Shown: in pieces, positions 366 to 40,905 of the stretch
Layout: every line of letters starts with the position of its first letter
Position numbering within the stretch: the first letter of the stretch is position 1
Assembly: GCA_014904985.1 (NCBI GenBank)
Contig: MU129072.1
Span: forward strand, 1 to 47,993
DNA length: 47,993 bases
Direction of reading: 5' to 3'
Source: Hydnum rufescens UP504
Lineage: Eukaryota; Basidiomycota; Agaricomycetes; Cantharellales; Hydnaceae
The notes under the pieces: generated by a model
Told to the model about the DNA's origin: nothing
The model's input: the letters and a program-made list of their open reading frames with translations, nothing else
Database searches by the model: none
Program-made: the position numbers and the translations under genes

Positions 366-2791
366 CCATCCATTGTCCTTCAATGTTTGTTGAGGGTGCC
401 GGAGGCCACTAGGAATGCTGCAAGGGGGATGATCCCCTCACTGCTTCCCAAGAGGGTCTTGATTTCATGATTGTCTCCATCCCCAAGGATATGGCAATCA
501 TCATCATACAGTTCACACTCCTGTAGGATATGTGACCATGTTTGTAAGTCTGCTCTGCATTGGCAAGATATGGACTCAGCTTGTACATGATGGGCATAAT
601 ATTCACCAAGGTGGGCATGGCCTGTCCAACATTGGACTGATCTGCTGAGGCCTTTCTGGCTTCAGTGATGGCTTGATGTGGTTGGCAGGAGTAAATGTGC
701 TGGGGTGGTGCTCCACTGATGCCCACTGTATCACCCAGTTTTGTGCCAGGGCACAGCATTGGGCACTCCCAATGAAAGACACAGAGGAGTACCATGGGTG
801 GGCAGGTCTGAGTTTGGACCCTTCCTTGGCTCGTTTGTCTGCCAGCTCATTTCCGACTATGTCCTCATGGCCAGGGGCCCAGTTGATAAAGATGTTGATG
901 TTCGATTTGCAGTCAATGATGTCGAGTATTGCTGCATGGAATCTTCTAGAGCAGTCCTGGGCTTTTCCTGGGCTGCCATCAAAAATCCTGTGTATGGCTC
1001 CTGTGTTATCAATGTAGATGTTGATTTTATTCACATCAGCAAGATGATTACTGTGTAGAATGAGGTGGCATGTCTGCTCAGCTGTGGATGCTAGTACCTC
1101 CATTTCAGCATCATACACCTCAACCTTGGGGCCCAGGGACCCAGCCATATTGAGGATGACATGATTCCTGTGATAAGCTACTGCACTGAATCCAGTTTTG
1201 CAGACCCCTTGTTCAGTGGTGAGAGACCCATCAGTGTAGACTAGGAGGTATTTGGTGTTGTAAGCAATAGATTGTACAAATTGAGCATGATCTTCTGCCC
1301 ATTTGGTCTTGAAAGAATGATTGGGCTGAGTTGGGGGTATGCAAATGCTGATCCTATCTTTGAGATCATCATCAAAGCATGTCCTCCACCAGGGGGTTCA
1401 GCAAATGCATCAATCCTTTCAGATTGGGGCACTCATTGTTGGGCAATTTTGATGAGGCGTGTCATGAGAGAGGCCTTGGATTTTGCCTCGGCTGCAGCCT
1501 TTCTGATTGGGTTGCTGTAGTTGCATATGGCAGGGCAAGGTGGTAGGGGTGGGGTGGACATAGGGCAAGGCCTACTGGCAGTGTAGGGGGAGGCATGCAT
1601 GCAACAATGGGGTTATGGCTGTCCAAATTTGTGAAATGTGTTGCTGCACAGTCATTATAGTAGTTGAGGAAGAGGGATTGGGGGCATGGAGGCTTCAATT
1701 TCCATTGCATAGATTGGAGTCATCTGAAAGGCTCCTGTGATATGGCAGATGGCCTTATTTTGCACAATAGTGAGTGGGTTCACCAGACTCCTAGGCCCAT
1801 ACCACCATGCCATGCTTGCATAGGTCATCATCAGGAGTATCACTCCCCTGTAGAGATTGTGTAGATGTTGCTGGTCGAGTCCCTGCAGTGAGTTGCTGAG
1901 CATGCCCAGTGCATCAGCAGCTTTTGCAGCTTTTGCTGCTGCATTCTTGACCTGGGTCCTGAAAGAGAGGTGGCAGTTGAACCAAACCCCCAGCCACTTG
2001 ATTGTTGGGGTTTGTTTCACAGTTTGGGGCATGTCAGGGTTGTGGGTGGGAAGGCTGATGTTGGGGAGGGCATCAGGGCCTGTCTTCCTAGATTTTGTGT
2101 GGTGTATCAGCTCTTTTTTAAGTGGATCAATCATTAAGCCATGTTCACCTAGCCAGGCACTGGTGGCTGTGTATGCTACTTGAAGGAGGCAGACACTCGT
2201 GCCCAGTGACTTTGATGCTACTGAAAGTTTGCCATAGTCTACATAGACAAAGAGGCATACCTCTGATGCTCTAGCAGCACAGGCAGACATTCTGTCATCT
2301 GCATTGGAGTTGAGGTGTGCAAGTACCTTTGTCTGCACATATTCCATAAGGGAGCTGAGAAGAAGGCCACTAATATTGGTGAGATGCAAGAACCCTGGGG
2401 GATCCCTGTTGAAACTGGGAGTAGGGTGTCACACTTGCCATCTAAGCATAGAGCTGTTGAGCAGTCTGACATGAATGATGTGATCCAATGGACCATTGGG
2501 AGTGGGACATGCTTGTCACATAGGGTACAGAGGAGTATGCCTTGGGGGACAAAGTCAAAGTACCCTGTTATATCAAAGGTAAGTGAGGAGGTATTAAGCT
2601 TATGATTCCACACAGCCTCAATGTCATGGATTGATGCCAGGATTGTGTCCTCTGCCAAGCAGCCTGGGGCACCACTGAATTGGTTTGGGGGAAGCATGCC
2701 TACCATACTGCTAGGAATGACAGTGGGCAGGCCTGAATTCACTCCAGAACCTTGCCCAGGACCTCCAAGAGCTGAATGAGATGGTGTGCCC

Positions 2792-2914
2792 TGTCGAAAA
2801 AACTGGTCGGCAAGAGCCGAATACGTTGCATAATACGTATATACACGACGGGGCCACATATCTAAATACGGACAGGATACGATCGGGACCATCTGCGGAC
2901 CCAATCCGCTGACA
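2792..2914 (-). repeat. 3' LTR of the Copia element
   Basis: 123 bp, termini TGTC/GACA, matching 4962-5084 with a few substitutions. On the coding (minus) strand it follows the purine tract GAGTGGGAG at 2915-2923. The duplicated target TGCCC abuts it at 2787-2791. Confidence 0.93.
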
Positions 2915-3170
2915 CTCCCACTCGCAGCGATAACGATCGGGTGGGGGTGTAGCAATAAACAAAGAGAATGCAAGGAAAAATGGGGGGGGACAAGAGGAGT
3001 GCTCCCACTGAAGTAGGAAAAGGCGAGAAAATAAAAGGCAATTTGCTCCCACTTGAGCAAAAAAAATGCAATATTGAGCAGAGAACTCCCACTGGAGCAA
3101 ATGGACTGGGATGAGCGAGACAAAAAGATGAAGAACAGAAAAGATGAGGCAGCAGGTATATACTCCCACT
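2915..3170 (-). repeat. Five polypurine-tract-like motifs before the Copia 3' LTR
   Basis: The minus-strand octamer AGTGGGAG occurs at 2915-2922 (the one abutting the LTR, so the functional PPT position), 3002-3009, 3046-3053, 3086-3093 and 3163-3170. All lie within 256 bp of otherwise A-rich, non-coding sequence. The four upstream copies are set in a context similar to each other (C[CA]AGTGGGAG[CT]). A PPT primes plus-strand synthesis, so extra copies could be spare priming sites. Confidence 0.7.
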
Positions 3171-3209
3171 GGATTAAAGAACAGAGACATGGCAATAATT
3201 ACCCCACAA

Positions 3210-4896
3210 TCACAAGTACCGTGAGCCGAGAGTTCCAATCTCCCTCGCGCAAGTAATGGTGGATGTCTTGATAGTGTCGTGTGCCGAGAGCTGGACATCC
3301 AAATCCCCTCCGCGCACCCCGATCGACAAGCCAGATCCATGGCAATCCCTCGCCCGGGCACCACCTCCATCCCACCCAAAAGAAAACATGATGTGAGTAT
3401 GTCCAAGTACTCTTTTAGAACAGCTCAATAGATTTGCTATTGGCAACTGCAACAGTAGCAGTTTCGGCATGAACGGGGGCAGGGCCATACAGTCACGCGC
3501 AAAGTGGCCAGGTGTCAGGGCCACGCTGCGATGAGAGCACCAAACAAATATAAACACAGATAAGTCCGACTAGGTCCGGCGTAAGTCCGGCTCAGTCCGA
3601 AGGAATCCAGGCAAGGCTGAGATAAGAGGAGTGGAGGAGAACAGAGGAGAGCTCCAGCAGCCCGGAAGGGTCTAGGCAGAGGTGAGTACAATGGTCCTTA
3701 AGCTCGAGGAGTCAGCTGGACCACACTCGGAACTGTAGTCCGGGGTAATAGCGGAAATCCTGAGTTTTCATAGAAGACATAAGGAAGTACAAGGACAAAC
3801 CTGTAGTCCGGGGTAATAGCGGAAATCCTGAGAGACCAAAGCTGAGGCCTCTGGACTTTGCCCCCGGACTACTTATACAGGACAGCTATACTACGAGGGG
3901 AGTGATCATCAAGGGGGAGGGTGGTTACAAGGGAGGTGGAAACAGGAACAGGGGAGCGGCCAGGAACAAGGACAGGTACTAGCGTGGGTAACTCGGAATC
4001 AAAGGAAATGAAAGAGAAATGAAACGTGACAGAACGAACTCGGAAGCAAACGGAAACAAACAGAAACAAGAAGAAATAAACTGACGAAGCCCGGAGAGCA
4101 CCGGAGACAAATCGGAAGCAAACCGGAGTTATCGGAAAAGAAGCGGACGAACCCTGACACCAGGCTGTTGACAGCGGTAACAACGGTTACCCTTCTTGGT
4201 GTCGTCTGCCGGCTTTGAGTTTGCTGACTTCGAGTCTGCCAGGGTCTTTACTCCACTAGGTTTCCCATGGCCACTTTTGGCAACATTCGCAGTGATTCGG
4301 TAATCGAGTTCACCCTCTTTTAGCCGCATCTCATACTCGAGGAGAGCAGCTGACACTTCGGATACGGTAGGTCGCCCATGATGGATGATGAGGGCAGTGG
4401 CAACAGAGTCATAGGAGGGGGGGAGGTTTGCAAGGAGGATGTCGGTGATATCTTGACCACTCACAGTGATCCCCATGGATCGGAGTTGGTTCGCATAGGT
4501 GGTGATGGTATTCAGGTAGTCCCCTACTGTGTCTCCAGGGGCAAGCTGTGTGTTTTGCATTCACTGCTTAATGGCAATTCGATTGGCAGCCGAGTTTCGT
4601 GAATAGAGTTGTTCGAGGGCACTCCATGCCGACAGTGCATCAGCGCAGTTACGAATATGAATCATTTGGTCCGGGTTCAGTGTCAGGCCAATAGCGGTAT
4701 AGCCGTCTGCAGATTTGGCATTCCAATCCTCAAGACGCGCGAGATCAGTGTGGCGGGGTCTGGAAACCGAGCCATTAACAACCCCCCAGCAGCCCGAGCG
4801 CATCATGATGAGCTGCATCTGAAAAGCCCAGTCATAGTAGTTATCTGCTCCAGACAACTTGGCTACAGCAGCCAGGAGGGCATTAACATTTGACAT
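3210..4896 (-). pseudogene. Copia Gag with zinc knuckle split by a solo LTR
   Basis: Starts at ATG 4896 (MSNVNALLAAV, then KLSGADNYYDWAF, the typical Copia Gag N-terminus). A TGA at about 4561-4563, consistent with a CGA-to-TGA change, splits it after NRIAIKQ. The frame resumes with MQNTQLAPGDTVGDYLN and a Gag core. The zinc knuckle begins CYRCQQPG and is interrupted at 4164. Beyond the solo LTR it resumes at 3512 as GHFARDC, restoring C-x2-C-x4-H-x4-C. A basic tail continues to about 3210. It would have bound element RNA in a virus-like particle and relied on pol from other elements. The stop and insertion mean this copy no longer makes full Gag. Confidence 0.85.
3513..4159. mobile_element. 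Solo LTR (647 bp) nested in the Copia gag
   Basis: Inverted termini TGTCAGGG (3513-3520) and CCCTGACA (4152-4159), flanked by the 5-bp duplication CCAGG (3508-3512 and 4160-4164). Removing it rejoins the Gag zinc knuckle exactly, which proves the insertion. No second LTR or internal coding is present, so it is a solo LTR left by LTR-LTR recombination. A 32-bp perfect direct repeat lies inside at 3733-3764 and 3801-3832. The termini resemble those of fungal gypsy LTRs. Orientation is not resolved. Confidence 0.88.
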
Positions 4897-4948
4897 GGTG
4901 GCGGGTGGCAGGTACTAGCTTAGAAGGTGGTATACGCTACAGGGCACA

Positions 4949-4961
4949 TGGGCCCATAACC
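4949..4961 (-). other. Primer-binding site, half-tRNA iMet type
   Basis: Reads GGTTATGGGCCCA on the minus strand, directly after the 5' LTR. This is the complement of the anticodon loop and stem of initiator tRNA-Met (CAU in the loop), as used by Copia and Ty5, where a cleaved 5' tRNA half primes reverse transcription. The tRNA match is from general knowledge of the iMet sequence. The host tRNA is not in this window. Confidence 0.75.
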
Positions 4962-5084
4962 TGTCGAAAAAACTGGTCGGCAAGAGCTGAATACGTTGCA
5001 TAATACGTATATACACGATGGGGCCACGTATCTAAATACGGACAGGATACGATCGGGATCGTCTGCGGACCCAATCCGCTGACA
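4962..5084 (-). repeat. 5' LTR of the Copia element
   Basis: 123 bp, termini TGTC/GACA. On the minus strand it precedes the primer-binding site and the gag ATG at 4896. The second copy of the target duplication TGCCC is 5085-5089. Confidence 0.93.
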
Positions 5085-6733
5085 TGCCCTTGGTGCTGAG
5101 TAATCAGGCTTTTTGGGTTTGCATAGCGCAATTGCCACTGATGTCCTCCATAGTTGGGGGTGGTACCCAATGTTGGCTGCTGCAGCTAGGAGCCAGAATA
5201 TTTCATCTTCTGCACATGACCATGCCCAACAGTATGTGAGGCCCGTCAGGCCACTCATACCTGGTGCATTGGCAGTTGCTGCTGCAAATAGGGCATCTCA
5301 GACTTCACCCTTCTTCAGTGCCTCATATGGGATGTCATCATTGTGGGGGAGCATGTCTGGCAGTGCATCATTTGCAATTTCTGGTTGGTCCAGGAATAGT
5401 ATGTTCCATAGTAGGTCACACTTCTCTTTATGCAGGACAGCTGGCAGCTTGCCTGGGCCATGGGAGAGTGCAGGGGAGGGGTACTGGTGAGATCCAGAAG
5501 TCCACTGCCTAAAATCCCAGAAGTTCTGATATGTAGCTTTCTCTACTTTTTCCAAGTAGAATATCTTCTTCTCTGACTTCAGTACCCAGTCAAACAAGTT
5601 CCTGGTGTGCTTGATGGTTTGCATAAGATCATCATTTACCTCACCATGGAGCTGGAAGAATTTGCAGGATGCATTATGGGCCAGGTTGATTTTGTCCCAG
5701 GTGACAGTCAAGTGCCTAGTCCACCATGGTTTGGCCCACTTTGAGGGGTTATGATGGGGCACTGCAGCCTCAGCTACTGTTGACATATAGGTCTGTAGTG
5801 ATACAGCTGCCTGGTCAACCTCTTCTGGTGTTGCTTGAGTTATATGGTGGTCTCTGAGGGGGCCAAAGACTCTCTCATATTCTAGTTCATCAGCATGCAG
5901 ACTATCTGTGAGTGATTGGACAAATGACATCTTGTTGGCCTCCTTCCAGTTCCATTTGAGTTCCATTACATCAACCATTTCCATGTCATCATTCCCAACT
6001 GAGAAGATTGTTGCAAAATGGTCTGAGCCACAGTGATTGTCTGCATCAATTCTCCAGCCATTAATTGAGCCTGCCACAGTGGCTGCCTCATTCACAAAGG
6101 ACAAGTTGAGTGGGGTGAAGAAATGCCCACAGAATGACTGGTAGGTCACCTGATTGCAGGCATTCAGTAGGCTGAAGCTATTCTCACCCAGCCATGTGAC
6201 AGTCTCCCAAGCTCTTAATGAGGGGGCACCCTCCATATCCCTCCAGAGGGGATGGTGTAGGTTCCAGTCCCCCATTAGTATGGTGGGAGTTAGGAGGTCT
6301 TGGTTCAGGAGCTGGAGATGGTCAGCTGCATACTCACCATCTTCTGCTGTAGGCTGGTTATATATATTGATTATGCGGGTTGCTGTATGGCTTGACCCAT
6401 TGCACTTGATGTCTAGGGCCATTATGTCTAGGTCATTGATGAGGTCAGTGCAGAGAGTGATATCAAGGTTTGCTTCAACTTGTTGATAGGCCATGACACA
6501 GGGTCTCCTATCATCAGGGATTGTTGTGCAGGGGAGGATGGGTTGCCAACCTGGCATACTTACTCCCCCTCTTGCATTATCACCCCTGATGGCACCATAC
6601 CATGGCTCCTGGAATAAAATAATACTATAGTCATCATTAGAGTTTGATGCATAGTGAAGGGCTGCATGCCCATTTTGGTTTGAGCATGCTGTGTTCAAGC
6701 TGAATACGTTAATTGGAGTAGCAGGTGTAATAT

Positions 6734-8515
6734 TCATTGGGATAGGGATGGGGTGAGTTCATTTATGGCACCATTATCTTCCTCCATTGAGTCTTCTGCC
6801 CCCTGCTGTGTTGATTTGGGCTGATCCTTGTCTGATGTCTTGTGTGGAGTCTTCCAATCACTGGCCTTGAATGTAGGTTGCTGGGGTGTTGTGGGTGCCA
6901 TCAATGTGCTTGGCTCCTGCTGTGCAGCTTGGTTAGGCAGAGGGTGCAATGGGCCTTTACCTTTTGTTTTTGAAGTCCCTTTTCCTTTGGCTGTCAATGG
7001 GCTACCACCTGGAGTTTTCATTGGGCCTGGCATTGGATGGCCTTCTCTGCACATACAGATGGGGCAATTTTTGTTAGTAGAGGTGTGGTCGCCATGGCAA
7101 TCAATACATTTGGCCAGGGTCCCCACTGGGTGGTTATGTGTGTCATGATCTGCAGTGGGGACTGAGCAAGTCTTGCATCTGTCACTGTTCCTACTGGTCA
7201 CAGTGCTGTGGTGTATAGATCCACACTTCTTGCAGTACCATATTGGCGCACAGTCTTCATATCTAGTTATTGTACACACCTCACCAAAGAGAAAGACTCA
7301 CCTGATACTCAGTAAACTTTTTGCATCCTCAGAGTTTGTGAAGGAGGAGACTACTGTCCCTGTTGTCTTGCAGCTTGGTGTGGTGGCACTGCCTAGCCAG
7401 ATTGGTTTGGCATATTGGCCCACGGGTCTGTAAGCGGCACATTGTTCTGCCAATTCATGCATTACATCTTCTGCATCATATGGGGTCCCAGATGATGAGT
7501 AAGTTTGGGTTGGGACCCCATTTACCTTGACTTTATGATACTCTATGTCAGCATGAGCATCTGTCTGGAACTCTCCTACTGTATTTCCTATCAGGGAAGC
7601 CACAATAATATCTTTATGCAGCAGGAGATCCATTGCTGAGCATCCATCCACTGTGATGATGATTGGGTTACCTGTGTGGGACCATGTGATCCCTGCAACT
7701 TGTAGCCATGCTGGGATCTTGTTGATTTCTAGGGCAAGGTCAATTTTCTCTCTCACAAACCACCCTTGGGCTTGGGCTTCAGCAGGGAGTTTTGGTTTGA
7801 ACTCCACAATTAGACAGCCTGGGTGGCCGCATTGGGTTGGATTCACTGGGGATGGGCATGGCAGTGCAACTTTCTTCATCATTGATGGTTTGGTTGGGGT
7901 GGAACTAGCTGATGGGGTTATCCGAGGTTGGCTTGACCAATTTGGGGGGATTGTGAGGACTTGTGAGATGGGTTGGTCTTGGTTATTGGCCGTGTGGTTA
8001 CTGGTCCCGAGTTTGGGGGTGATCCTGTGATATTTAGCAGTGACATTGATAAGTTTGGGGCTAGGGACATACTAGCTTCGAGAGACTGTGCCAGTGCCTC
8101 TGCAGTGCAGTGTTCCTTGCAGCATATATAGGTGTAGACCTCATGTACCTTTGATTTGGTGGATTCATCACTGTCAATAAGCACAGATACTGCCTCCCCA
8201 CCAAGACTGAGTTGTCTGTCTAGGGTCTCCCAGAAGGTGTGTACAGTCTGTTTTACAAGTGTAAGTATTTCATATGCCTGTTGCTCACTATGAGGGTTTC
8301 TTTCTCAATGTCTTGGGCATCATCTGTCAGGGTTACATCTTCAGGCTCCCTGTTAGGGGCCCTAGTTAGGATGCCTTTTTTCCTTTGGCCGAAAGCCTTC
8401 ACTGCCTTTTCACAATGGGACTCCGTAGCTGAATCTACGAGAGCTTTGTGTTTTGCATTATTTGACCTGGGGCCTTTTTTGGCTTTGCAACACTTTCAGA
8501 GTGGAGCGGCGACAT
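6734..8515 (-). pseudogene. LINE ORF1 (gag-like RNA-binding protein), broken
   Basis: ORF1 starts at the ATG at 8515 (MSPLHSES, then a lysine-rich stretch) and continues through several frames to 6734. It has an early stop near 8436 and later frame breaks near 7900 and 7290. The C-terminal third carries Cys/His clusters (CKKCGSIHH, CKTC, CIDCHGDH, CPICMCREGH), like the zinc knuckles of LINE ORF1 proteins that bind the element RNA. A proline- and lysine-rich tail follows. Its TGA overlaps the ATG of ORF2 (AATGA at 6734-6738), which would suit stop-restart coupling in the original element. Family assignment is by domain layout. The exact original sequence is not recoverable by eye. Confidence 0.75.
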
Positions 8516-10900: not shown

Positions 10901-12169
10901 ATGTGGAAATCTATCCGCAAGCATTTTAAACTCACCAAGAAAGTATCCACCGAGGAGGAAGTCCCCGGTGGAGAGATCCCCGACAAAAATAGGCGCTTTA
11001 GGGTCCTCATACTTGGACCGGCGAACGCGGGAAAGACCACTCTGCTCGAACGACTAACTGACTGCCCTGCCGGTGCAAGTATAGTGACCCGGGACGGAAA
11101 ACGTGTAATTACTACAGAGCTCAGTAGAGATGCTGTTCTAATTCATCCCTTTATCTCTCAGATTGAGGAGGTCCCCAGGGGATATGATCAAGTAAGAATC
11201 ATCCTATCAAAGGCACGCTGTGGTTACTCGATGTTTTCATACTATCTAGCGAGGGATCCACACCATCGACGATGAGATCACTTACAAATCAAACCCTGAT
11301 CTTGTTTTCCATGACTCTGGCGGTTTCGAGGCGGGAGGGGTCGAGGAGGTCGAGGCCGTCTGGCAATTTATTCAACAGCGCTCGTTAGCCTCACCTTCAG
11401 AGCAGTTGCATGCGATTTGGTGCATTTACATTTTGGCTCATACCCCCTCACACTTGGACTCATCGGTTGCTCCAGGCTCTGCATCCCAACCGATAATGAC
11501 AGGCCCTTTGGATTCCTGCAGTCGGGCTTTTTCTCCAAGCCCACAGCATCAGGTATGTCCCATGAGTCGCACCATTCGATCCTTTCTCTTACGTACTGGT
11601 CCATGTGTCCGTTCAGTGCCTGTGATCGGGATTTTCACCAAGCTGGATGGAAGAAAGACGAAAATTATGACTGAGGTTCTCGGCCCTGCTTCCGAACCAT
11701 CCGATTTCCTCGCTCGTGCCCCGGAGGTGGAGCAGAAAGTGGCTGAATTTGTTAACGGACTTGAGACACAATTTCGGAACCAGCGGTACCCACCTGCTGG
11801 TTTTCTCAGGGTTGGAAGTATGTATATCCTCTCTGAGTAGCAATTTTTCCCAGTTAAATTTTGGCATAAAGACATGCATGAAGTTACCGAGCAGAGCATA
11901 GCATTGTGCAACCAACTTCTTGGAGCCACTATGGATTCCCTTCCCAATGAGACCCAGAGATTGTTGCTTCGCCTCACGGTTTGGAAAAGAAACCGCCGGA
12001 TTCATACTGTGTATGTTTTAGAGCGGTGAGTGTGGATGTCCGATAGATTGAGAGTGACTAACAAGGATGTTTATCTCATAGAGTCCTTGATGGTGGAGCT
12101 GAAGGTGTTGTCTCAAGCTATATCCATGAGATGATGGTACAATTTGACTATGCTCAGGGAACATCATGA
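10901..12169 (+). CDS. G-domain (P-loop GTPase-like) protein, six exons, 332 residues as modelled
   Basis: Exons by eye: 10901-11191, 11250-11419, 11476-11552, 11617-11817, 11854-12025, 12082-12169. Introns are 58, 56, 64, 36 and 56 nt, all GT-AG, and the joined length is 999 nt in frame. Residues show G1 GPANAGKTT (39-47), G3 DSGG (119-122) and G4 TKLD (187-190), so the nucleotide-binding motifs are intact. This fits the large agaricomycete family of single-domain G proteins of unknown function. The N-terminus is basic (WKSIRKHFKLTKK). The C-terminus follows family-like sequence (GAEGVVSSYIHEMM) and then stops at TGA 12167, exactly where CpG-poor array DNA begins, so the last few residues may be acquired and the gene truncated. 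The biological role is unknown. Confidence 0.72.
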
Positions 12170-15100
12170 CCAAACCCCACCTGGGGAAGATGAAGAATCC
12201 CAGTTATGTGCAGATAAAGGGTTCAGGATTCTCATGGTGAGTGACTGGGCAAGTTGTGAGCAATGTATTGATTGTCTCACATGCTGTAATGGCAACAACT
12301 GGTGATACATTGTTGGTTTGTTGGATGGCATCAACACCATAGGAGGTATAGCCACAAGGACTAACATTCAGTCCACACTGACTGACTTACATGTTTCTTT
12401 GTGGCATTGACAATGTAGTTGGTCAGTCTGGATCTCCAAATTTGATACATGGTGTCTGGCTGATACATTTTTTGATACCACTGGGGATGCAGTATGTGAG
12501 TGGATGTCCCACCATTGGATACATGGCCATTTCCTGATACAGCTTCTGCTGGAATCTGCAATGCAGGGGGTGAGTTTGCATCTCATAGTTAATGTGAGGT
12601 TGCTGGGTGTATCTTTTGTTGACATGGATAACATAGCATGTGAGTGTGCATCTCCCACATTTGGATCCACTGTTCCTGGCTGATATATCCCTCTGTGACA
12701 TTGATACTGTAGGAGGTAAGCATCTCACAGTTTGGCATGTGGTCACCACCTGATGTGATATTTGGTGGCATGAACAACATAGAATGTGGGTTGGCTTCCT
12801 CTACTATTTGATGTGTGATGACTGACTCATATATCTTTTGGTGCAACACAGGATGTAGGTCTGGATGTCTTGGGATTTGATGCTTAGTTGCTGACTGACA
12901 AACCTTTTGTTGGCATTCACAATCTAGTATGTGAGTGTGGATTCAGTATGAGGTCCATGGCTGATATATTATTGGATGGGATGGGTAAAATAGGAGGTGA
13001 GTCCATATCTCCCAGCATTCATGGTGGTTTCTGGCCAGTGAATCATTTGGTTGCATGGATAATGTAGTATGTAAGTCAGAATTTCCTATAAGTTAGGACA
13101 TGCTCACTGGTTGATCTATTGTCTGATGGCATGGACAATGTAGAAAGTAAGTCCAGATCTCTTGCCATTTGATGCACATGGGCAGGCTGATATTTCTTTC
13201 TCTCTCATGGACAATGTAGGCTGTAGGTCCAGGTCTGCCACAAATGTGTGGTCCCTCATTGACACATTGTTTGGTCCTCTTGACACTGCAGCCTGTAAGT
13301 TTGTATATTCCCCAATTTGGTGTGTGGCAGGCTAATTCATTGTTTGGTCACTGATAATGCAGTATGTAAGTCTGGATCTCCTCCTCCACCTTAATGCACT
13401 GTTACTGTATGACACATCACTGGATGATATCAACAATCAAGAATGTGGGCACTTATGATTTTGTGTGTGATCATTAGCTGATCCATCTTCTGGTGGTATT
13501 TGCCATGTAGCTGGTGAGCAGCTTCTCTTACAATTTCAAGCAGGGTCACTGACTGATACATCAATGGGTGGTATTCACAATGTAGGATGTGAGTCTGCAT
13601 CCCCCATGATCATTAGTTGCTAGCTGATACATTTTTCAATGCCATCAACAATGTAGGCTGTAAGTCTGGTTCTTGTCAATGCAATGCACAAGTGCAGGCT
13701 GATATTTCTTTGTCTGACATGAACAATGTAGGAAGTAAGGATGTCCCACAATTTAACTCATGGTCACTATCTGATACATTGTTTGGTCCCATTGAAAATG
13801 TAGCATGTAAGCTCAAATCTCTTCTAATTCAATGTGGGGCCACTGGCCAATATATTCTTTGGTGACATTAATAATGTAGCATGTAAGTTCTGATCCCTGG
13901 CACCTTGCTGCAGAATCACTGGCTGACATATTGCTGGATGACATTAACAACCTAGCTGGTAAGCCTTTTGATTCAGTGTGTGGTGATTGGCTGACTCACC
14001 CATGGGATCAATAATGTAGCTGGTGGGTCTATGACCTTGCACAATTTGATGCAGGAATTGCTGGCTGATTCATCATGTGGCATTGACAATGTAGGATGTG
14101 AGTTGCATGCCCCATCTGGTGTATTGTTGGCTGATACATTGCCTGGGGTATCAAAAATGTAGGGGGTATGTTGAGATCTCTGGCAATTTGGTGTGAGGTC
14201 ACTGGCTGATACATTGTTTGGTGGCATTGCCCATGCAAGGTGGTGGGTTTTCATTTCCCACCATCCATTGTGTGGCCCTTGGTTAATATACCTTTGGATT
14301 ACATTGTGACTATAGTATGTAAGTCCAGATCTCAGACTGATCAATGCATGATTGTGGCCTGATTCATCTTCTGGTATCTGCAACACAGAGGGTAGGTCTG
14401 GAGCTTTGGATTCCATACACCACTGCTGGGTGATTTATCTATTGGTGGTGTTGATCACATAGAGTGTAAGATGAGGTCCATTAGAATTTGATGCAGGGTG
14501 CCTGGCTGATAGATTGGTGGGTCACCTGAACACTGTAGGATGTAATGCCATATCACCCTCTATCTGAAGAGTGGTTAGAGGCTGACACATCTTTGGGTGG
14601 GATTGACAATGCAGGATGTAAGTGCGGACATGTTAGAATTCAATGCATTGTCCCTTGATGATTCATCTTTTGGTGGCATTCGCAACATAGTCTGTAAGTG
14701 TGGATGTGTTCAAATTCAATGCATTGTCCCTTGCTGATTCATCTTTTGGTGGCATTCACAACATAGCTTGTAAGTGTGGATGTGTTCAAATTCAATGCAT
14801 TGTCCCTTGCTGATTCATCTTTTGTGGCATTCACAACATAGCATGTAAGTGTGGATGTGTTTAGAATCAATGCATTGTCCCTTGCTGATTCATCTTTTGG
14901 TGGCATTCACAACATAGATGTAAGTGTGGATGTGTTAAAATTCAATGCATTGTCCCTTGCTGATTCATCTTTTGGTGGCATTCACAACATAGGGTGTAAG
15001 TGTGGATGTGTTAGAATTCAATGCATTGTCCCTTGCTGATTCATCTTTTGGTGGCATTCACAACATAGTATGTAAGTGTGGATGTGTTAGAATCAATGCA

Positions 15101-17468
15101 TTGTCCCTTGCTGATTCATCTTTTGGTGGCATTCACAACATATATGTAAGTGTGGATGTGTTAGAATTCAATGCATTGTCCCTTGCTGATTCATCTTTTG
15201 GTGGCATTCACAACATAGGATGTAAGTGTGGATGTGTTAGAATTCAATGCATTGTCCCTTGCTGATTCATCTTTTGGTGGCATTCACAACATAGGGTGTA
15301 AGTGTGGATGTGTTAGAATTCAATGCATTGTCCCTTGCTGATTCATCTTTTGGTGGCATTCACAACATAGCTGTAAGTGTGGATGTGTTAGAATTCAATG
15401 CATTGTCCCTTGCTGATTCATCTTTTGGTGGCATTCACAACATAGGGTGTAAGTGTGGATGTGTTAGAATTCAATGCATTGTCCCTTGCTGATTCATCTT
15501 TTGGTGGCATTCACAACATAGCTTGTAAGTGTGGATGTGTTAGAATTCAATGCATTGTCCCTTGCTGATTCATCTTTTGGTGGCATTCACAACATAGCTT
15601 GTAAGTGTGGATGTGTTAGAATTCAATGCATTGTCCCTTGCTGATTCATCTTTTGGTGGCATTCACAACATAGCTGTAAGTGTGGATGTGTTAGAATTCA
15701 ATGCATTGTCCCTTGCTGATTCATCTTTTGGTGGCATTCACAACATAGGTGTAAGTGTGGATGTGTTAGAATTCAATGCATTGTCCCTTGCTGATTCATC
15801 TTTTGGTGGCATTCACAACATAGCTGTAAGTGTGGATGTGTTAGAATTCAATGCATTGTCCCTTGCTGATTCATCTTTTGGTGGCATTCACAACATAGTT
15901 GTAAGTGTGGATGTGTTAGAATTCAATGCATTGTCCCTTGCTGATTCATCTTTTGTGCATTCACATAGTGTGTGTGTTAGATTCATGCATTGTCCTTGCT
16001 GATTCATCTTTTGGTGGCATTCACAACATAGCTGTAAGTGTGGATGTGTTAGAATTCAATGCATTGTCCCTTGCTGATTCATCTTTTGGTGGCATTCACA
16101 ACATAGTTGTAAGTGTGGATGTGTTAGAATTCAATGCATTGTCCCTTGCTGATTCATCTTTTGGTGGCATTCACAACATAGCTGTAAGTGTGGATGTGTT
16201 AGAATTCAATGCATTGTCCCTTGCTGATTCATCTTTTGGTGGCATTCACAACATAGGTGTAAGTGTGGATGTGTTAGAATTCAATGCATTGTCCCTTGCT
16301 GATTCATCTTTTGGTGGCATTCACAACATAGTATGTAAGTGTGGATGTGTTAGAATTCAATGCATTGTCCCTTGCTGATTCATCTTTTGGTGGCATTCAC
16401 AACATAGGATGTAAGTGTGGATGTGTTAGAATTCAATGCATTGTCCCTTGCTGATTCATCTTTTGGTGGCATTCACAACATAGGTTGTAAGTGTGGATGC
16501 CTTGGAACTGAAAGCACCACCCTCACTAACCCATCTTTCAATGACCTTGACAATGTAGGCAGTAAGTCTGGATGCCTTGCAATTCAATGCATCACCCCTT
16601 GCTGATTCCTTTTTGGTGTCATTCCCAATGCAGCCAGTATGTTCAGATCCCTTAGGATTCAATGTATCATTGCTTCCTGATGTCCCACTTGGTGATTTTG
16701 CCCACATAGGAGGTCTGCCCACATCTCCCACCCCTTCATCCATCATCTCTCAATCTCTTCCTTGGTGGCATGTATGCCTTAGGATGTATGTCCACACCTC
16801 TTACTATTCAGTCTATGGTCCCTGGCTCATACACATTTTTCTGATATTTACAATTCAGCTTGTGAGTTCCTAGATCTATACAATGCAGTAATATTCTGTT
16901 TTCCAACTGCACTCCTTACAATTTCATTGATCACAGGATAATGTAAGTCACATATAATGTGGAAAACCCAAATGATTCTGTCCAATTGCAATATTAATCA
17001 TTGCTCACCTGTGCCTTCATTCTATCTGGTAAATATACTCAATCCTCACTCCCAACCTTACCCCTATCTCACATAAGTTTTATTAGGTGCTCAAATATCA
17101 GGGGAGCAAGGCCTGTGCACCCTTCCTCAAACTGTTGGTCAGTCTGGGTTTTCATTAATTCCCCACCTCCAGGGCATCTAAGCCTTCATTCCAGCATCCC
17201 CAGTCTATCCCATCCAATAATAATGTTCAATATCTGGTGTTTATTTGTTGTCAGTGTTGAGACCAATTCTAAGTGCACAGGAGATTGCTTATCTTGGCTT
17301 GTTAAACTAGTGGTCATTCTTTGGACTCGGGGGGAGAGGAATGCAGATTTGGCTACTGCTAGGTCTATCCAGGACCAAATCAAGGATGATGGAGGTTTCC
17401 AGGGATCTACTTCATTTTATATTGCAAGGAAACTTGCCAAGCTCATTGATGAATATACAGCATTGTAG
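12150..17468 (+). CDS. Candidate micro-exon gene: 5' exon, about 60 exons of 2-3 nt, two 3' exons
   Basis: Model: 5' exon 12150-12236 (29 codons, MLREHHDQT...GFRILM), then GT-AG intron-like units of about 73 nt separated by 2-3 nt, last micro-exon 16937-16942 (6 nt), exon 17087-17137, terminal exon 17255-17468 ending in TAG. If junctions are joined as read, skipping unit 39 (acceptor AG changed to AT near 15143) and unit 50 (damaged near 15967), the sum is 528 nt with no internal stop: 175 residues. The micro-exon part is polar and acidic in its first half and hydrophobic in its second. The terminal exon has a hydrophobic stretch (CLSWLVKLVVILW) then a charged tail (RKLAKLIDEYTAL). No known family is recognised, though DKGFRILM resembles the start of G-domain proteins. 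The frame depends on chosen exons. The region is CpG-poor like old repeats, which counts against an ordinary host gene. Confidence 0.5.
12237..14614 (+). repeat. Diverged part of the intron-like array: 32 units, every junction spaced by exactly 3 nt
   Basis: Triplets between AG and GT, by start: 12343 gag, 12419 ttg, 12493 tat, 12567 ggg, 12637 cat, 12713 gag, 12783 aat, 12852 gat, 12928 tat, 12994 gag, 13068 tat, 13144 aaa, 13220 gct, 13292 cct, 13363 tat, 13442 aat, 13511 ctg, 13586 gat, 13657 gct, 13732 gaa, 13804 cat, 13880 cat, 13956 ctg, 14020 ctg, 14095 gat, 14163 ggg, 14240 gtg, 14316 tat, 14389 agg, 14463 agt, 14539 gat, 14615 gat. Donors are mostly GTAAGT or GTGAGT (weak ones: GTATAG, GTGGGC, GTAATG). 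Acceptors are TAG or CAG, twice AAG. Most units keep CTGAY near 30-35 nt before the acceptor. The first unit is 106 nt, the rest about 61-76. Unit bodies are strongly diverged, so the retained signals and spacing stand out. Confidence 0.93.
14618..16483 (+). repeat. Homogenised core of the intron-like array: about 25 near-identical units of 75-76 bp
   Basis: Each 73-nt unit starts GTAAGTGTGGATG, contains TTGCTGATTC and ends CACAACATAG. Bodies are almost identical. Differences concentrate in the 2-3 nt between units: 14691 tct, 14767 ctt, 14842 cat, 14918 at, 14993 ggt, 15069 tat, 15144 at (acceptor lost), 15219 gat, 15295 ggt, 15371 ct, 15446 ggt, 15522 ctt, 15598 ctt, 15674 ct, 15749 gt, 15824 ct, 15899 tt, about 15967 damaged, 16032 ct, 16107 tt, 16182 ct, 16257 gt, 16332 tat, 16408 gat, 16484 gtt. 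Near identity implies recent amplification or gene conversion. Long open frames that run across these units are by-products of the 75-bp period and are not coding in themselves. Confidence 0.95.
16487..16942 (+). repeat. Right-hand diverged units of the intron-like array
   Basis: Six more junctions continue the pattern with diverged bodies: 16560 gca, 16634 cca, 16710 gag (donor GTCTGC, weak), 16783 gat (donor GTATGT), 16859 ctt (GTGAGT), 16937 gataat (GTAAGT). Units are 71-75 nt. After 16943 the next in-phase acceptor seen is TTATTAG at 17080-17086, giving a last intron of about 144 nt without internal repeats. Confidence 0.85.
17255..17468 (+). CDS. Terminal exon of the candidate micro-exon gene
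   Basis: Follows TTTGTTGTCAG (acceptor at 17254) and encodes 70 residues before TAG at 17466-17468. It starts VETNSKCTGDC, has a hydrophobic stretch and then a charged helix-like tail (RNADLATARSIQDQIKDD, IARKLAKLIDEYTAL). It is the only part of the model with ordinary exon length apart from the 5' exon and 17087-17137 (51 nt, donor GTCAGT at 17138). Phase agrees with the joined micro-exons. No domain is recognised. Confidence 0.5.
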
Positions 17469-19054: not shown

Positions 19055-19880
19055 ATAATGCTTGAAACAGCAAATATTTGAGCATCCCTGGTGGTGTTGA
19101 GGGAAGGGGAGTGGAAGATGAGGAACAGTGCAGCCAGAAGTTATCAGAAAACCCTGAAAGTGGGTGTGTTGAAAAGCTGTGATTTGGGTGCACAGAATGC
19201 ACCCACACACAGACTGAACAACAATGCCTAGCCCCCAGGGGGGCACATGAACCCAAAAGGGAAGATTGAGGATAGCACAATGGAAAGTGGTTGGTTCGTG
19301 GCATAAATATCCTTGATGGATTTGGATGAATGAGATGAATCAATTAAGCCTAAGAACATCAAAATCAGGCATGATTGGACTCCCCCAGGTGATGTTGAGT
19401 GGGAGATGAGGGGAAGATGAGGAATAGTGAGGCCAGAAGTTATCAGAAAACCTTGAAAGTGGGTGTGTTCAAAAGCTGTGATTTGGGCACACAGAATGCA
19501 CCCACACACAGCCTGAACAACAACACCTAGCCCCCAGGGGGGGCACATGAACCCAAAAGGGAAGATTGAGGATAGCACAATGGAAAGTGGTTGGTTCATG
19601 GCATGAATGTGCTTGATGGATTTGGACAAATGAGATGAAGTGATTAAGCCTAAGAACATCAAAATCAGGCATGATTTGACTCCCCCAGGTGATGTTGAGT
19701 GGGAGATGAGGGGAAGATGAGGAATAGTGAGGCCAGAAGTTATCAGAAAACCCTGAAAGTGGGTGTGTTGAAAAGCTGTGATTTGGGTGCACAGAATGTA
19801 CCCACACACAGCCTGAGCAACAACACCTAGCCCCAGGGGGGGCACATGAACCCAAAAGGGAAGATTGAGGATAGTGCAAT
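19055..19880. repeat. Tandem repeat, three copies, period 300 bp
   Basis: The block GCCAGAAGTTATCAGAAAACC recurs at about 19131, 19431 and 19731, with the neighbouring GTGATTTGGG, CACCCACACACAG, CACATGAACCCAAAAGGG and CCCCCAGG blocks at the same spacing. Copies 2 and 3 are closest to each other. The third is cut at 19880, where a different repeat starts. Because 300 is a multiple of 3, long minus-strand open frames run through the copies with a 100-residue period. They lack recognisable domains and I do not call them genes. Confidence 0.8.
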
Positions 19881-24489: not shown

Positions 24490-25848
24490 TGTAAGCAGGA
24501 AACTGTGGAAGAAACCAGCTACAGTCCGCGAAATGGAAACGAGGACAAAGAAGGGGGATCACGGGGCCAATCCGAACGTTAGGGTCCGAGGGAAGGAAGG
24601 GTCTTTGGACGGGTAGAATTGTCCTGTATAGACGGAGCCTATCCAGACAATAAATGAAGGGGTTGTTAAATCAGAGAATCACACTCTAGGTCCTCCTCTT
24701 GAGAGCCTATCAGAAGTGTGATTAGTGGGGGTTGAGTTTTGGAATTTACCCTGACACCAGCAGCAGTTCAACTAGCTTTTCAACTGGGGATGGGGGGAAA
24801 GACGATAGAAATTCGCATCTCCTGCACTTAATATACATCACAGAAAAATGCTATGGTAACCGGCGGAAAGATGGGATTAAGGCGAAAATGAGGAAAAAGA
24901 AATCAAGTCAAAAGCTTCAAAACTGAAGGAGATATTCAATTAACAAGTGAGAATGGGAGAATATGGCTTAACCAAGGTATTCCTCCTCTTCTACTGGACC
25001 AAATCCCCTGAGGAATGGTGGAACTGGTCGTCCTAGATGTACCCTCCATCGGGCATAGGGTGCCGGAACCATAATTGCCTTTAGTAATCAGAAAAGCGGA
25101 GGTAAAAGTGAAATGAGCCATGAGGAGACTAAATTACAGGAGGCCGAGTTCTAATCCGCTCGTTTTGCCCTTGGTACCGTTCGATGCGGATTTTCAGCGT
25201 CTTTCCAGGGGTGATCGTTTCGAACGAATCGGATCAAAACTGATGGAGTTATTCGCGAAATACTGAAGAATAGTGTGGAACATGAGGTAAAGTCGACCTG
25301 GAGGATGCAGTTCTCATCCGATAAACGTGTGTGTGGTACCGTTAGACAGGTATTAATCGTAGCTTTCTGGGCGCTGTCTTGCCGAGTCGATCCGATCGAA
25401 ATTGGTGGAGATATTCGCGAAATACTCCTTGAGAGTATTGGAATAGCCCCTATTCCACATGTGACAAGTCCGCGAGTCAAAGTGGGAGTCGTGTTACGTA
25501 ATACAAGGTCAAATACCGCCCTTGAGGCAATTGGATAAGCCGGTGGTGATACAATAGATGGACGAAAGTAAGCAAGTTGAATTGCTATAGCCTGGTTGAA
25601 CTGGCTTGGAGATAAGTACAAATTTGATGGCCTGTTGAAGTGCCAAGGACGGACAAATAATTGTCTCGTATATAGGGTGGAGGAAAAGTAAAAAGGGACC
25701 ACGGATCCTGGGATGTGAATCCATGCTATTTGACGGCCAGAGGAATAACGAGTGTGGATACGAGAGAAATGTAAGAATATGGATTCGTTTGAGGAGGTAA
25801 TTGGGCCCGGATGAGGTATGTACGTAATGGGATTTTATCCCTCCAACA
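24490..25848 (-). repeat. 3' LTR of Gypsy-A
   Basis: 1359 bp, matches 33801-35159. On the minus strand it is preceded by AGCTGGGGCCTAATA (polypurine region) and runs TGTTGGAGGG to CTGCTTACA. It contains a diverged tandem duplication of about 160 bp: GGTACCGTT and ATTCGCGAAATACT occur twice. Confidence 0.95.
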
Positions 25849-25924: not shown

Positions 25925-28900
25925 CTATTTACGGCGTGTCTGTGTGGCCTGGCGATTGCCGGATCCAGATGGTTTGTTCGCGCTGTGTTCGGATCGTCCT
26001 CTCGTCTCGTCTCCATCCTTGCCTTTAAACACGAGCGGAGTGGTCCTAGGGTTCATGTCGATCACGGGCCGTTTCTTCTCCTTGGCCTTGCCGATGATGT
26101 TGATCAACTCCGCCATCCAGGGATTATCGTATGCGGCAAGGGGTACGATCGAGTTCCAATGCTGGAACACACTTCGGATCTCGACTTTAAGAGCTTTGAA
26201 TCTAGGATCCGATTCGTCTGCGTGGTCTGCGAGTACGGTAAGAGCTCCTCGGAACAGCTCGTTTATTGCGGCGAAATAGTCGTCTAACGAAAATGACTCG
26301 TTGTGTAGCCTCAACAGAACGTCCTTCAGCGCATACGCCGTGTCCGCAGCTTGGCGTTGTTGCACTTCAATTGCATCCAACCGCTTGTACATCCCGGATG
26401 TCGATTTCTTGAAATTGAACATCAAGTCCTCAGTGCGTCTCGAAATAGTGCTTGCGTCGTCCCGAATACGCTCGAATTCTCCGCGTAACGACTCGAATTC
26501 CCTTGCGTGCCTGTTCTGCATCTCGCGATACCCTCGTTCGTAAGTGCCCATCCGAGAAGATACCGTTTTGATATTCTTCATGACCTCATCAGACACGCTG
26601 ATAAAGACATTGCCACGGGGTGCAGTCGACTTGGCCAACTCTTTCCCTTTAGTAGCCGGATTGACGGGAGGAGGTGAGTCCGAAATATCCATGCTAATTT
26701 CGCCCATGTTGCGCCCTCCTTTCTTGTGCGAGCGATGCGAGTTTCGAACTGATGTCTCAATCGTCTCCATTGTCTCCGATTGATTTGTGGAAGGTGCAGG
26801 GCTACTCTGTCTCGACATAGTGTCCGATTCAGGTTGACGTCGTTTAGCCGTGTCCCTTGGTGGTGCTCGAGGTCGCCTATCGTCACGTCGATACGACTCA
26901 TCCCTTCTGTGTGGGATCTCGCGGTCTGCGTCCGATCTGGGCGAGTCTGGATAACGGGGGACGTAGCGGTCCATCATGTTGCAGGTGAAGGTGAGCGGCC
27001 CGACCTCGGTTAGTTCTTCGACCGGCATGATAATATGCTCCACTTGATTATTGCTAGTTTGATCATACTCATTTCCTACGGTGATGGTGCGCTGTTCTTG
27101 AAACTTGACGACCGTCATCATGCTAATCCTAATAAACTGGTTCAACGTCTTCATTCCGCCCACGACATGGGCATCTCTCGATCCCCACGGCAACCAGTTG
27201 AAGAGCCTCGGAGGGAACTTGATCCCTGAGGGGAATCGAGGTGGGTCGTACTGTGCATCCGGATTCTTGTGATAGAAACGCCACATTTCTTCGTCAGCCG
27301 CGACATCTGGGTCGGTTTCGTCTTCGAGTTTCGATTCTGGATCAAGGCCTAATGCACGTCGTTGCCAGGATTCGTACTTGGATGTCCAATATTTATCGAC
27401 TTCATCAGGATCAGCCAAATTCCAGGGCTGGGACCTTCGAGGTGGAATTCTCCTGTGGGATACGGCAGATACGTCCATTTCCTCCTCATCCTGATTCCAA
27501 ACCGGGGTTCTAACAACCGGCTCCTGATTGTCCCGAAAATGATAGAGCTTAAGTCTCTTCCATGCGATCGGTCTACGTAATACGATGCCGTCGGGTTGCT
27601 GAACGACGTATGCTCCAGATGGCCTGCGTTGTACGATGATGAAAGGTCCAAACCATTTGGCCACCCCCTTGGATCCGTGTTGATTATCCAGCGCTTCGTT
27701 GTACACAATTACCCATTCGCCGGGAGCATATTCACCGGCGGCCATTCGAGCTGCGTGCTTCTGGTTGAATGCGTCAGCCGCCCGTAATCGCGACTTCTCG
27801 TTTGCCAGAACTGCTTCTTCCAAGAGCTCTTCCTTTTTACTTAACTGTATAATCCTTAAAGCGAGGAGATCCTCCGTCGTCTGAACTGAAGGCCAGTCTA
27901 ACGAATGAAAGGTGCGATCCTTAACGTCGTACGGCATCAATGGGTGTTGACCATAAAGTAAGTAATACGGCGTGTATCCCGTGTTTCGCTTCACAGTAAC
28001 GCGGTCCGCCCAAATAGCATACCCTAGGTAATCCGGCCAATCGTAGATACGGATACCACGTATTTTCCAAAGCGCGCTGATCCAAACCGCATGGCCGCGT
28101 TCGGACTTCCCATTTGCTTGGGGATTGTAAGGTGAGATTCGTACGACTGGAACCTTGTATTTATCCATCAGCGTCTGAACTGCGCCTTTAAATTCGGACC
28201 CGTTATCGATCGTGAGCTGGAAAATGCACCCGTAACGACACATAACCTCGAAGAGGAAGTCTGCGACCTTGTCCGATGTGATATGTTTTAACTTGGTCGC
28301 TTCAAGGAAACCGGTGAGATTGTCGACCAAGTCAACTATATACTTATAGCCATGTTTGCCTTTAGGCATGTTGACGGAGTCCATATCGAACCGCCTGAGG
28401 ACCGACTTTGTATATTGAGGCTGGACAGGTATCTTGTTCCTATACGTCGATCGAATCTGACACTCATGGCATGTCTGACAGTACCGGGCTACGAAATTGT
28501 ACATATTCGGCCACCAGTAGGAGTCCCTTATCTTGCGAAACGTAGGATCGCGACCTCGATGTCCCGATTCGTCATGCGCATCCTTGCAAATCCTGGTTCG
28601 GATATCCATACTAAGAACAACCTGGAGAGGCGGTTTGTCCCCATTCCGTCGCCACAGCATGTTTTCCAATAAAAAGAAGTGCCTTGCTCGGTTGGCTATC
28701 TGTACCCGCCGTTTACGATCCTCCGGCAGCTTCAAGTTCGTTAGGTATGCGAGTAATTCGTCCCAATGTTCCGGAGAATCGTACTCATAGACCTTATGTT
28801 TATGATCTAGCTTTTCGGACAAAACCTTGTCATCGGGAACGATGGCCTCGCCTTCAAAGATCCCAACTAGCGTGTTTAACTCGAGGTCGTCCTTCTCGAT

Positions 28901-33733: not shown

Positions 33734-33778
33734 GGCTTAAAGAATTGAATTGGGTTGATACGGATTGAGAGTTGTGAC

Positions 33779-40173: not shown

Positions 40174-40379
40174 CACCTAACACATCCTCAAAAAGGTACC
40201 TCTTAGGTGGGTTCCAGTTGCATTGGCCTTTGACCTAAGAGGTGGTTTTTATATAGGCACATCTAGGCGGTGTCTAAAGGTGTTCAAAAGATGAAAAATT
40301 TCTAAGTCCCTATAATAGGCACACCTATCTGTGCCTGCTGCAGGCACTCCCAGGCTTTTTAACTATTTGATAGGCATTC

Positions 40380-40620
40380 TGGGGTTGATTTAGGCATGCT
40401 TAAATCAGTTGTGTCTAATGATGTCTAGAGCTTAATTATTGACTTTGAATTGAAGAGGCTTATCCAGGGTTGATTTAGACATGCCTAAATCAGTGATGTC
40501 TAGTGATGTGTAGAGTCAGGTGCTGCTCCAGGGGTTTTACAATGACTTGATGGACACCCTGCAGTTGATTTAGGCATGCCTAAATCAGCTGTGTCTAGTC
40601 ATGTCTAGAGCTTGCTATAT
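40380..40620. repeat. Three copies of a self-complementary 22-mer in the left arm
   Basis: TGATTTAGGCATGCCTAAATC-type palindromes at about 40387, 40469 and 40566 (two with single changes), each followed by NTGTCTANTNATGT[CG]TAGAG, forming 80-100 bp units. The same blocks appear inverted at about 44435-44670. Confidence 0.75.
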
Positions 40621-40723
40621 CTCATTAGAGTTTCCTGGTGTGTCCATGAGGGCTTAGTATGCAGTGTGTCTACTAGTGGATAAATTAGAACAGGTTGACC
40701 ATCACCAGGAGGTGTCTAATTGT

Positions 40724-40905
40724 GTGCCTAAGCAAGTCTAAGCATGTCTAGGGGTGTCTAAGCTTGTCTGGGCATGTCTAGGTGTCTAGGTATGTCTAAG
40801 CATGTCTAGGCATGCCTAGGTGTCTAGGCATGTCTAGGTGTCTAGGCATGTCTAGGCATGTCTAGGCATGTCTAGGCATGTCTAGGCATGTCTAGGCAGG
40901 TAACT
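40724..40905. repeat. 10-bp tandem repeat (TCTAGGCATG)n
   Basis: Degenerate then regular copies of TCTAGGCATG, cleanest at 40835-40900. The mirrored array is at about 44150-44330 in the right arm (CATGCCTAGA). The 10-bp period is close to one DNA helical turn. No function is claimed. Confidence 0.85.

Follow-up and report, generated by a model that had tools for sequence, protein, structure and literature searches.

A predicted GTPase gene family of Hydnum rufescens whose tail appears to be encoded one amino acid per exon

Runs of exons only a few nucleotides long are held to be unspliceable, given exon definition and the size of the spliceosome. At recursive splice sites the donor is regenerated and no exon is left, and fungal NLR-like proteins, which belong to a P-loop family, carry tandem repeats of high internal conservation with a few hypervariable codons. 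We analysed a window of 47,993 nucleotides (nt) on contig C164 (GenBank MU129072.1) of Hydnum rufescens UP504, whose genome comprises 63.2 Mb in 539 contigs, and within it an array of intron-like units that follows the GTPase part of a predicted gene and forms its 3' half. The array recalls recursive splicing in the stepwise removal at regular sites that it would require, but its junctions retain 3 nt (only 3 of 1400 exons in 22 such arrays have length 0). The repeat is coding in the NLR-like proteins, whereas the Hydnum repeat is an intron, and variation falls on the codon that separates one intron from the next. In passages of its genome study, H. rufescens is described as an ectomycorrhizal member of the Cantharellales (PMC7550596).

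Isolated ultra-short exons can be spliced at 1-3 nt, as described in passages on a 1-nt exon of Arabidopsis APC11 (PMC4674806) and on a 3-bp exon of Drosophila homothorax and a 1-nt exon in Fusarium CYP621A (PMC7392893, PMC12940212), but these stand singly in their genes, whereas the Hydnum array has dozens in a row. The micro-exon genes (MEGs) of Schistosoma form a rapidly changing multigene family with many short symmetric exons, down to 3 bp (PMC10526429), and the Hydnum arrays also have many very short exons in multiples of 3 (1259 of 1400 in 22 arrays are 3 nt). However, MEG exons are given in passages of that source as 3-81 bp, introns as up to 5 kbp and the products as secreted, whereas in Hydnum almost all exons of the chain hold one codon, the introns are tandem and of about 73 nt, and the N-terminus of the protein leads into a P-loop GTPase domain. 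The aphid megacycle gene has more than 100 micro-exons and encodes about 2000 amino acids (PMC9168663). It shares long micro-exon chains with the bicycle genes and with our array, but by arithmetic its exons average tens of nucleotides rather than single codons; the bicycle and megacycle products are putative secreted effectors, and the passages on them in that source do not describe an intron-plus-codon repeat.

Fungal introner-like elements, as presented in passages of PMC4457414, are also families of near-identical short spliceosomal introns, although introners are gained singly and the Hydnum introns are consecutive and in tandem. Stwintrons, in the passages of PMC8469720, are nested introns, whereas those of Hydnum follow one another with a codon between, each complete with donor, branch-like motif and acceptor. 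Searches of the open-licence literature of PubMed Central turned up no chain of single-codon exons in which the intron is the repeated unit, and on that literature we rate such a chain as a categorically new gene architecture. With 45-90 consecutive exons of this kind and joined sequences to compare, it becomes possible to test in one transcript how small an exon can be and in which order introns are removed, and the array suggests a novel route by which proteins can lengthen, in which the repeated unit is the intron, residues are added singly and the frame is never broken.

Exon lengths and joined codons of the array

We assign a probability of about 0.9 to the reading that the tail of a multicopy predicted GTPase is encoded one amino acid per exon, by 3-nt exons that lie between introns of about 73 nt and are spliced to a single frame. 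It is carried by the triplets themselves, by their phase-0 continuation from an exon ending in FRILM, by 20 other loci that are built alike, and by matching codons found joined in independent predicted proteins.

A query made from the array core matched at least 342 places in the genome. Twenty further 10-kb stretches of the same genome, selected by their match to a 501-nt array query, were fetched and gave, together with the window, the 22 arrays analysed; as the selection was made by the array, the sample speaks for the array-bearing members of the GTPase family. One locus (L026, C252:57500-67400) holds two arrays in opposite orientation with about 4 kb between them. The segmentation scored only the donor, acceptor and branch-like motif, with exon lengths of 0-12 nt taken as equally likely (a flat prior). 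Introns flanked by 3-nt junctions had served to train its splice-site weights, but exon length as such was unweighted.

In the window, 62 micro-exons lie between intron-like units at 12343-16861, 50 of them of 3 nt, ten of 2 nt and two of 1 nt; segmentation alone gave 58, and GAG at 12343, TTG at 12419, GAG at 16710 and GAT at 16783 were added by string location. Micro-exons 1-35 (12343-14844) are all exactly 3 nt long, and the remaining 27 comprise 15 of 3 nt, 10 of 2 nt and two of 1 nt. Intron length has its mode at 73 nt both in the core of the array and in the framework that precedes it. A first-pass annotation of this DNA had described repeated units of about 73 nt at this place, their donor, branch-like and acceptor motifs, and exactly 3 nt between AG and GT in the diverged section, all of which held. 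The 2-3 nt that it gave for the core are probably not a biological feature, since the indel-rich introns described below make assembly error or decay the probable cause.

Across the 22 arrays, 1259 of 1400 exons were exactly 3 nt; the others were of 2 nt (65), 4 nt (19), 7 nt (14), 1 nt (8) or 0 nt (3), with 16 longer than 12 nt and 16 of other lengths of 6-12 nt. Most of the 7-nt cases resolved into a 3-nt exon with an atypical donor behind it, either GTCAGT or the minor GC donor GCAAGT, and after this correction there were 1271 triplets without a single stop codon. Independent codon positions would give about 42 stops in the 736 framework triplets, although the columns are homologous and so are not independent draws; in the 535 variable-segment triplets only 0.6 would be expected, because 523 of these end in T. 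Read from intron-internal anchors in the 430 units of the 14 arrays with clean junctions, the donor was intact (GT or GC) in 419 and the acceptor AG in 420, against 392 for the one control dinucleotide used inside the intron.

The chain begins in phase 0 after exon 8, which ends in FRILM, and single-codon stretches comprise about 45 to 90 exons per gene. Its first part is a framework of about 35 codons, for which the introns alone served to align the copies (ELYGCENDYEYKASDNLDHENAEHDELENVYGRDE in one subfamily, ELYGCENDYEYKASDNLDHENAEHNELENVYGRDE in L032 and ELYGHENDYEYKAPDNLDGEHDLLEEVYRRDE in L020), and 11 of 35 framework columns carry a single codon in all aligned copies (10-19 copies per column). 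The variable segment behind it has roughly 6 to 52 codons and leads to VESMD or CxPEDLDN, after which come last exons of the ordinary kind.

Protein searches with the deduced sequences retrieved six predicted proteins, on Joint Genome Institute (JGI) contigs of 931 to 1641 bases, that hold the deduced codons joined in frame; from the missing introns we infer that these contigs are complementary DNA. After FRILM, P0077 continues with nine codons, ELYGCEKYY, and then VSVDSI, with which intron 9 opens in many copies; YVSVDSI, read at that intron, flanks the joined part where the genome predicts an intron. P0076 joins 11 codons (ELYGCENDYEY) before a reading that resembles intron 11. P0072 and P0073, which are identical over their overlap and perhaps represent one molecule, join 28 codons after FRILM, all 28 of which match L035, and P0028, a diverged relative (31 of 51 identical to the framework consensus), joins 33. 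P0080 opens with a retained intron, MTHHWMISTIK, that is exact in the window, L021 and L024, as is the intron reading MTHHWMISTIKN. It then joins 42 single codons (17 framework, 22 variable, and E, D and L), followed by the 6-nt exon DN and the last exons, whose junctions P0075 and P0078 confirm. Its variable part, LLLHGGLFPLHFLCFHLDPCKP, aligns with the single-codon exons LLLPGLFPLHFLCRHHHFHLDPCKP of L024 and is recognisably the same, except for one H-G for P difference and the units RHHH. Nine of the other retrieved proteins that carry the ILM ending of this exon (P0003, P0011, P0012, P0013, P0014, P0016, P0017, P0018 and P0026), and P0030 in addition, do not continue into ELYG; most of them run on into intron 1 or agree with different models.

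Four of the five entries that start upstream have their 5' introns gone and a later intron present, whereas P0080 shows the opposite order, with an upstream intron retained and everything downstream joined. Introns therefore appear to be removed individually, with no strict direction apparent, and the splicing chemistry is likely to be ordinarily spliceosomal. The proposal of the first-pass annotation that codon-sized exons are joined by splicing is thus borne out by the six proteins, but the strict 5'-to-3' order implied by its word 'sequential' fits the four entries but not P0080; its alternative, in which AG-NNN-GT junctions act as ratchet points for the removal of a 4.7-kb insertion, conflicts with the codons that P0080 retains in its product. 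It had seen the array without recognising the GTPase gene family, the framework codons common to paralogs or the core that differs between them.

Several observations weigh against this reading. The joined forms are known from predicted proteins on JGI contigs rather than from RNA of strain UP504; after its joined codons P0028 reads VSPDPY, which resembles GTAAGTCC and was not found in the fetched copies, and P0073 ends in DSRYHID, located within a downstream intron. This end, seen in P0072 and P0073, is best accounted for by mis-splicing to a cryptic AG inside a downstream donor. The window copy as assembled is out of frame, exon 8 being 4 nt shorter than in other copies and the joined exons 1-8 not a multiple of 3. 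Framework exons are about as alike between copies as introns are (identity 0.844 versus 0.832), and single-base differences between framework codons comprise 843 nonsynonymous and 182 synonymous changes; purifying selection on the amino acids is therefore not generally apparent. Exon indels per nucleotide are too few for length alone to prove selection on frame. Linkage between intron windows (0.10 pooled, -0.007 within and 0.08 across exons) did not reveal a copied unit, and the structure model of the tail (P0080) is of low confidence, with a predicted local distance difference test (pLDDT) score of 51. Finally, in the NCBI gene models the family appears as two genes, a truncated GTPase and, on the 3' side, an 'uncharacterized protein' of its own; given this split, similar genes may hide in other intron-dense genomes.

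Variable codons and alternative explanations

We propose that the spliceosome would take out the introns of about 73 nt one by one, leaving one reading frame, and that the intron-plus-codon unit would behave as a tandem repeat, gained or lost by exchange between near-identical introns. Each gain or loss would then make the protein exactly one residue longer or shorter with the frame unbroken; the core would be the younger, still expanding part and the framework the older, diverged one. Because skipping any set of exons would keep the frame, one gene could give many tail isoforms, and changes at the first two bases of NNT codons would not be able to yield stops. In the weakest step of this proposal, the variable tail would provide each paralog with a binding or recognition surface of its own beside a shared GTPase switch. 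It is a rather doubtful further step to regard the arrays as a dedicated protein-diversifying device, in which copy number sets length residue by residue and dozens of paralogs carry variable recognition tails, for example in nonself recognition or symbiosis.

The variable segment is not the same in the paralogs compared and consists almost entirely of NNT codons, with first bases (n = 535) of G in 219, C in 215, T in 91 and A in 10; its similarity between paralogs is highest for L022 and L026 (231 pairs, with only 25 shuffles per pair). Mean diversity within the 22 arrays was 0.56 at the first and 0.67 at the second codon base, but 0.04 at the neighbouring third-base T and 0.074 in intron columns. 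In one array, exons differed in 139 of 161 pairs of units whose flanking introns were both identical (random pairs differ in 0.89), and in the 14 clean arrays they differed in 103 of the 124 pairs whose upstream introns were identical. Such a pattern could result from random setting of the codons when units arise, from selection that drives the codons apart, or from homogenisation of the introns. It also agrees with a targeted, junction-specific diversification, in which imprecise joining at AG-NN-TGTAAGT, rather than ordinary mutation and selection, would randomise the variable codons. We consider this the most tenable of the alternatives, although it is still unlikely. P0080 and L024 differ in 4 of 17 framework codons while their aligned variable codons are nearly all the same, so that the variable codons have not changed faster there, and this likeness argues that variable codons, once set, are kept. 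Furthermore, the identity of introns may in part be assembly over-correction, and strong diversifying selection could yield the same pattern.

The state of the assembly bears on the junctions that are not 3 nt long. The division into 14 clean and eight odd-junction arrays, the window's among the latter, was made by junction length, which is therefore not independent evidence; the contrast between their introns is. Introns of the odd-junction arrays carry 1.03 substitutions, 1.18 deleted nt and 0.41 insertions each, versus 2.81, 0.47 and 0.07, respectively, in the clean arrays. The non-3-nt junctions of the eight arrays are thus in keeping with consensus errors in a collapsed repeat, with decay as a fair alternative, and the same two causes probably account for the 2-nt and 1-nt exons of the window (the first at 14918) and for its indel-rich stretch at about 15955-16000. 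Passages of the UP504 genome study state that Illumina or PacBio or both were used across the study (PMC7550596). Hypermutation was considered for the 2-nt junctions and dropped, as the substitution-poor, indel-rich introns of those arrays make assembly error or decay likelier.

Less probable is an origin of the introns as introner-like mobile elements, which would have interrupted a formerly continuous coding sequence at each of its codon boundaries. Short introns that are nearly identical and present in many copies do recall the fungal introner-like elements described in passages of PMC4457414. However, insertion at exactly every phase-0 boundary is implausible; the framework introns of the 14 clean arrays are 17-36 edits (mostly 20-33) away from each other and from those of the core, while introns of the variable segment are mostly 0-12 edits from one 73-nt consensus; and diverged edges around a homogeneous core are the structure of a tandem repeat.

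It is very improbable that the joined sequences are intronless DNA retrocopies and that the genomic arrays are decaying non-coding satellite. A retrocopy would likewise be without introns, and P0028, P0072, P0073, P0076, P0077 and P0080 are known as predicted proteins, not as source molecules; but a retrocopy presupposes that the introns were once spliced, and the entries cease to be spliced at places that vary from one to the next and keep intron sequence in frame there, as in partly processed RNA. The splice dinucleotides of the arrays, moreover, are kept more often than the control. The contiguous tail peptide had no match in the genome, a result that counts for little as the search was made without a positive control. 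Scarcely credible is a loss of the triplets through excision of the whole array, whether in the form of a single large intron or in zero-nucleotide recursive (ratchet) steps, for although the NCBI model P0018 joins FKILM straight to D-Y and omits seven codons (possibly a skipping product, albeit an annotation and not a read), the junctions hold 3 nt and not 0, P0080 retains its 42 single codons through the variable segment, and for the genes behind P0080 and P0073 it is already contradicted. A non-coding satellite, one 4.7-kb intron and zero-exon recursive splicing were accordingly rejected on the joined codons, the 3-nt junctions and the kept splice dinucleotides, and the array is very probably a chain of single-codon exons.

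The predicted GTPase family and the gene in the window

At least one flank homologous to those of the window (the GTPase part upstream, the last exons downstream) was present in all 20 fetched loci and both in 15; arrays were present in all 20, each of which had been selected for an array match. The GTPase part occurs at at least 40 loci, the window included (40 of 61 candidates scored), and the 3' part at at least 40 places (40 of 56 candidates scored). The models contain the P-loop GTPase signatures GPANAGKT, DSGG and TKLD, in agreement with GxxxxGK[ST], DxxG and [NT]KxD. The confident structure model of the domain (pLDDT 80) is similar to P-loop GTPases in general, EngB and the immunity-related GTPases (IRG proteins) among them, with modest template modelling scores of about 0.3-0.46 by query length. 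In Pfam, no family scored above the cut-off for the GTPase part, and two other pieces of the protein had no hit.

All features of the window gene lie on the plus strand. Its joined exons translate to the start of the NCBI model P0002 (hypothetical protein BS47DRAFT_1321037, H. rufescens UP504), beginning with exon 1 of the GTPase part at 10901-11104 (MWKSIRKHFK..., with the P-loop GPANAGKTT). The same joined translation gives exon 2 at 11162-11191 (IEEVPRGYDQ), exon 3 at 11250-11419 (RGIHTIDDE...DSGGFEAG...), exon 4 at 11476-11552 (LCIPTDNDRPFGF...), exon 5 at 11617-11817 (VPVIGIFTKLDG..., with the TKxD motif), exon 6 at 11872-12025 (NMHEVTEQS...VYVLER) and exon 7 at 12082-12104 (VLDGGAEG). 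Exon 8 lies at 12158-12236 and was aligned in nine copies; relatives read NIMT...GEDEESQLCADKGFRILM here with a phase-0 end, and P0002 reads NIMTKPHLGKMKN.... An intron at 12137-12203, chosen to bypass a TGA seen in nine copies, was dropped, as the NCBI models place the intron at 12105-12157.

The framework occupies 12343-14617, its 3-nt exons having been placed by segmentation, string location and columns common to other loci. By first base, they are 12343 GAG, 12419 TTG, 12493 TAT, 12567 GGG, 12637 CAT, 12713 GAG, 12783 AAT, 12852 GAT, 12928 TAT, 12994 GAG, 13068 TAT, 13144 AAA, 13220 GCT, 13292 CCT, 13363 TAT, 13442 AAT, 13511 CTG, 13586 GAT, 13657 GCT, 13732 GAA, 13804 CAT, 13880 CAT, 13956 CTG, 14020 CTG, 14095 GAT, 14163 GGG, 14240 GTG, 14316 TAT, 14389 AGG, 14463 AGT, 14539 GAT and 14615 GAT. 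The variable segment, with its near-identical 73-nt introns, extends over 14618-16558 (exons from 14691 TCT to 16484 GTT). The 3' framework at 16559-16861 again consists of single codons, 16559 GCA, 16634 CCA, 16710 GAG, 16783 GAT and 16859 CTT (A, P, E, D and L; P0080 reads ...CKP-EDL-DN), and is followed by the 6-nt exon GATAAT (DN) at 16937-16942, located by string and present in P0080. The exon GSKAC.PFLKLL at 17102-17137 is joined in P0080 and P0079; the exon HPQSIPSN.NVQYLVFIC at 17195-17249 and the last exon, to the stop, at 17311-17468 (...LIDEYTAL) are joined in P0075, P0078 and P0080.

A second copy of the family, with array and GTPase part, lies on the same contig outside the window (C164:76420-84433, minus strand). 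At L037 (C74:155500-165400) most of the framework is present twice, each copy being followed by a variable segment, so that a whole block of single-codon exons can undergo duplication. The 23 aligned framework codons of the duplicate are identical and their introns 0-4 edits apart; further on it is degenerate and allows no clean dating. Near the N-terminus, upstream of the P-loop, several copies (L027 and L031 among them) carry a short acidic DEEVP-like repeat whose length is very different between paralogs, and which is a second, ordinary length-variable segment of the family.

Other features of the window

A perfect inverted repeat at 40345-44707 has 2.0-kb arms of 100% complementarity (abutting pairs of 1172 and 883 nt), a 268-nt centre and mirrored CTAGGCATGT arrays; either a palindrome or an error of assembly, for instance a missed hairpin adapter, could account for it. 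Direct copies at 25151-25834 and 34462-35145, with the same minus-strand reading of 227 amino acids, flank a long frame at 25925-33736 (2603 amino acids) that has gag-pol-like parts by eye, and the arrangement is, judged in this way, likely to be a long terminal repeat retroelement. On the minus strand at about 380-8300, open frames resemble by eye those of a non-long-terminal-repeat retroelement (endonuclease, reverse transcriptase and RNase H). A tandem repeat with a 300-nt period lies at 19086-19874 (2.6 copies, 92% matches).

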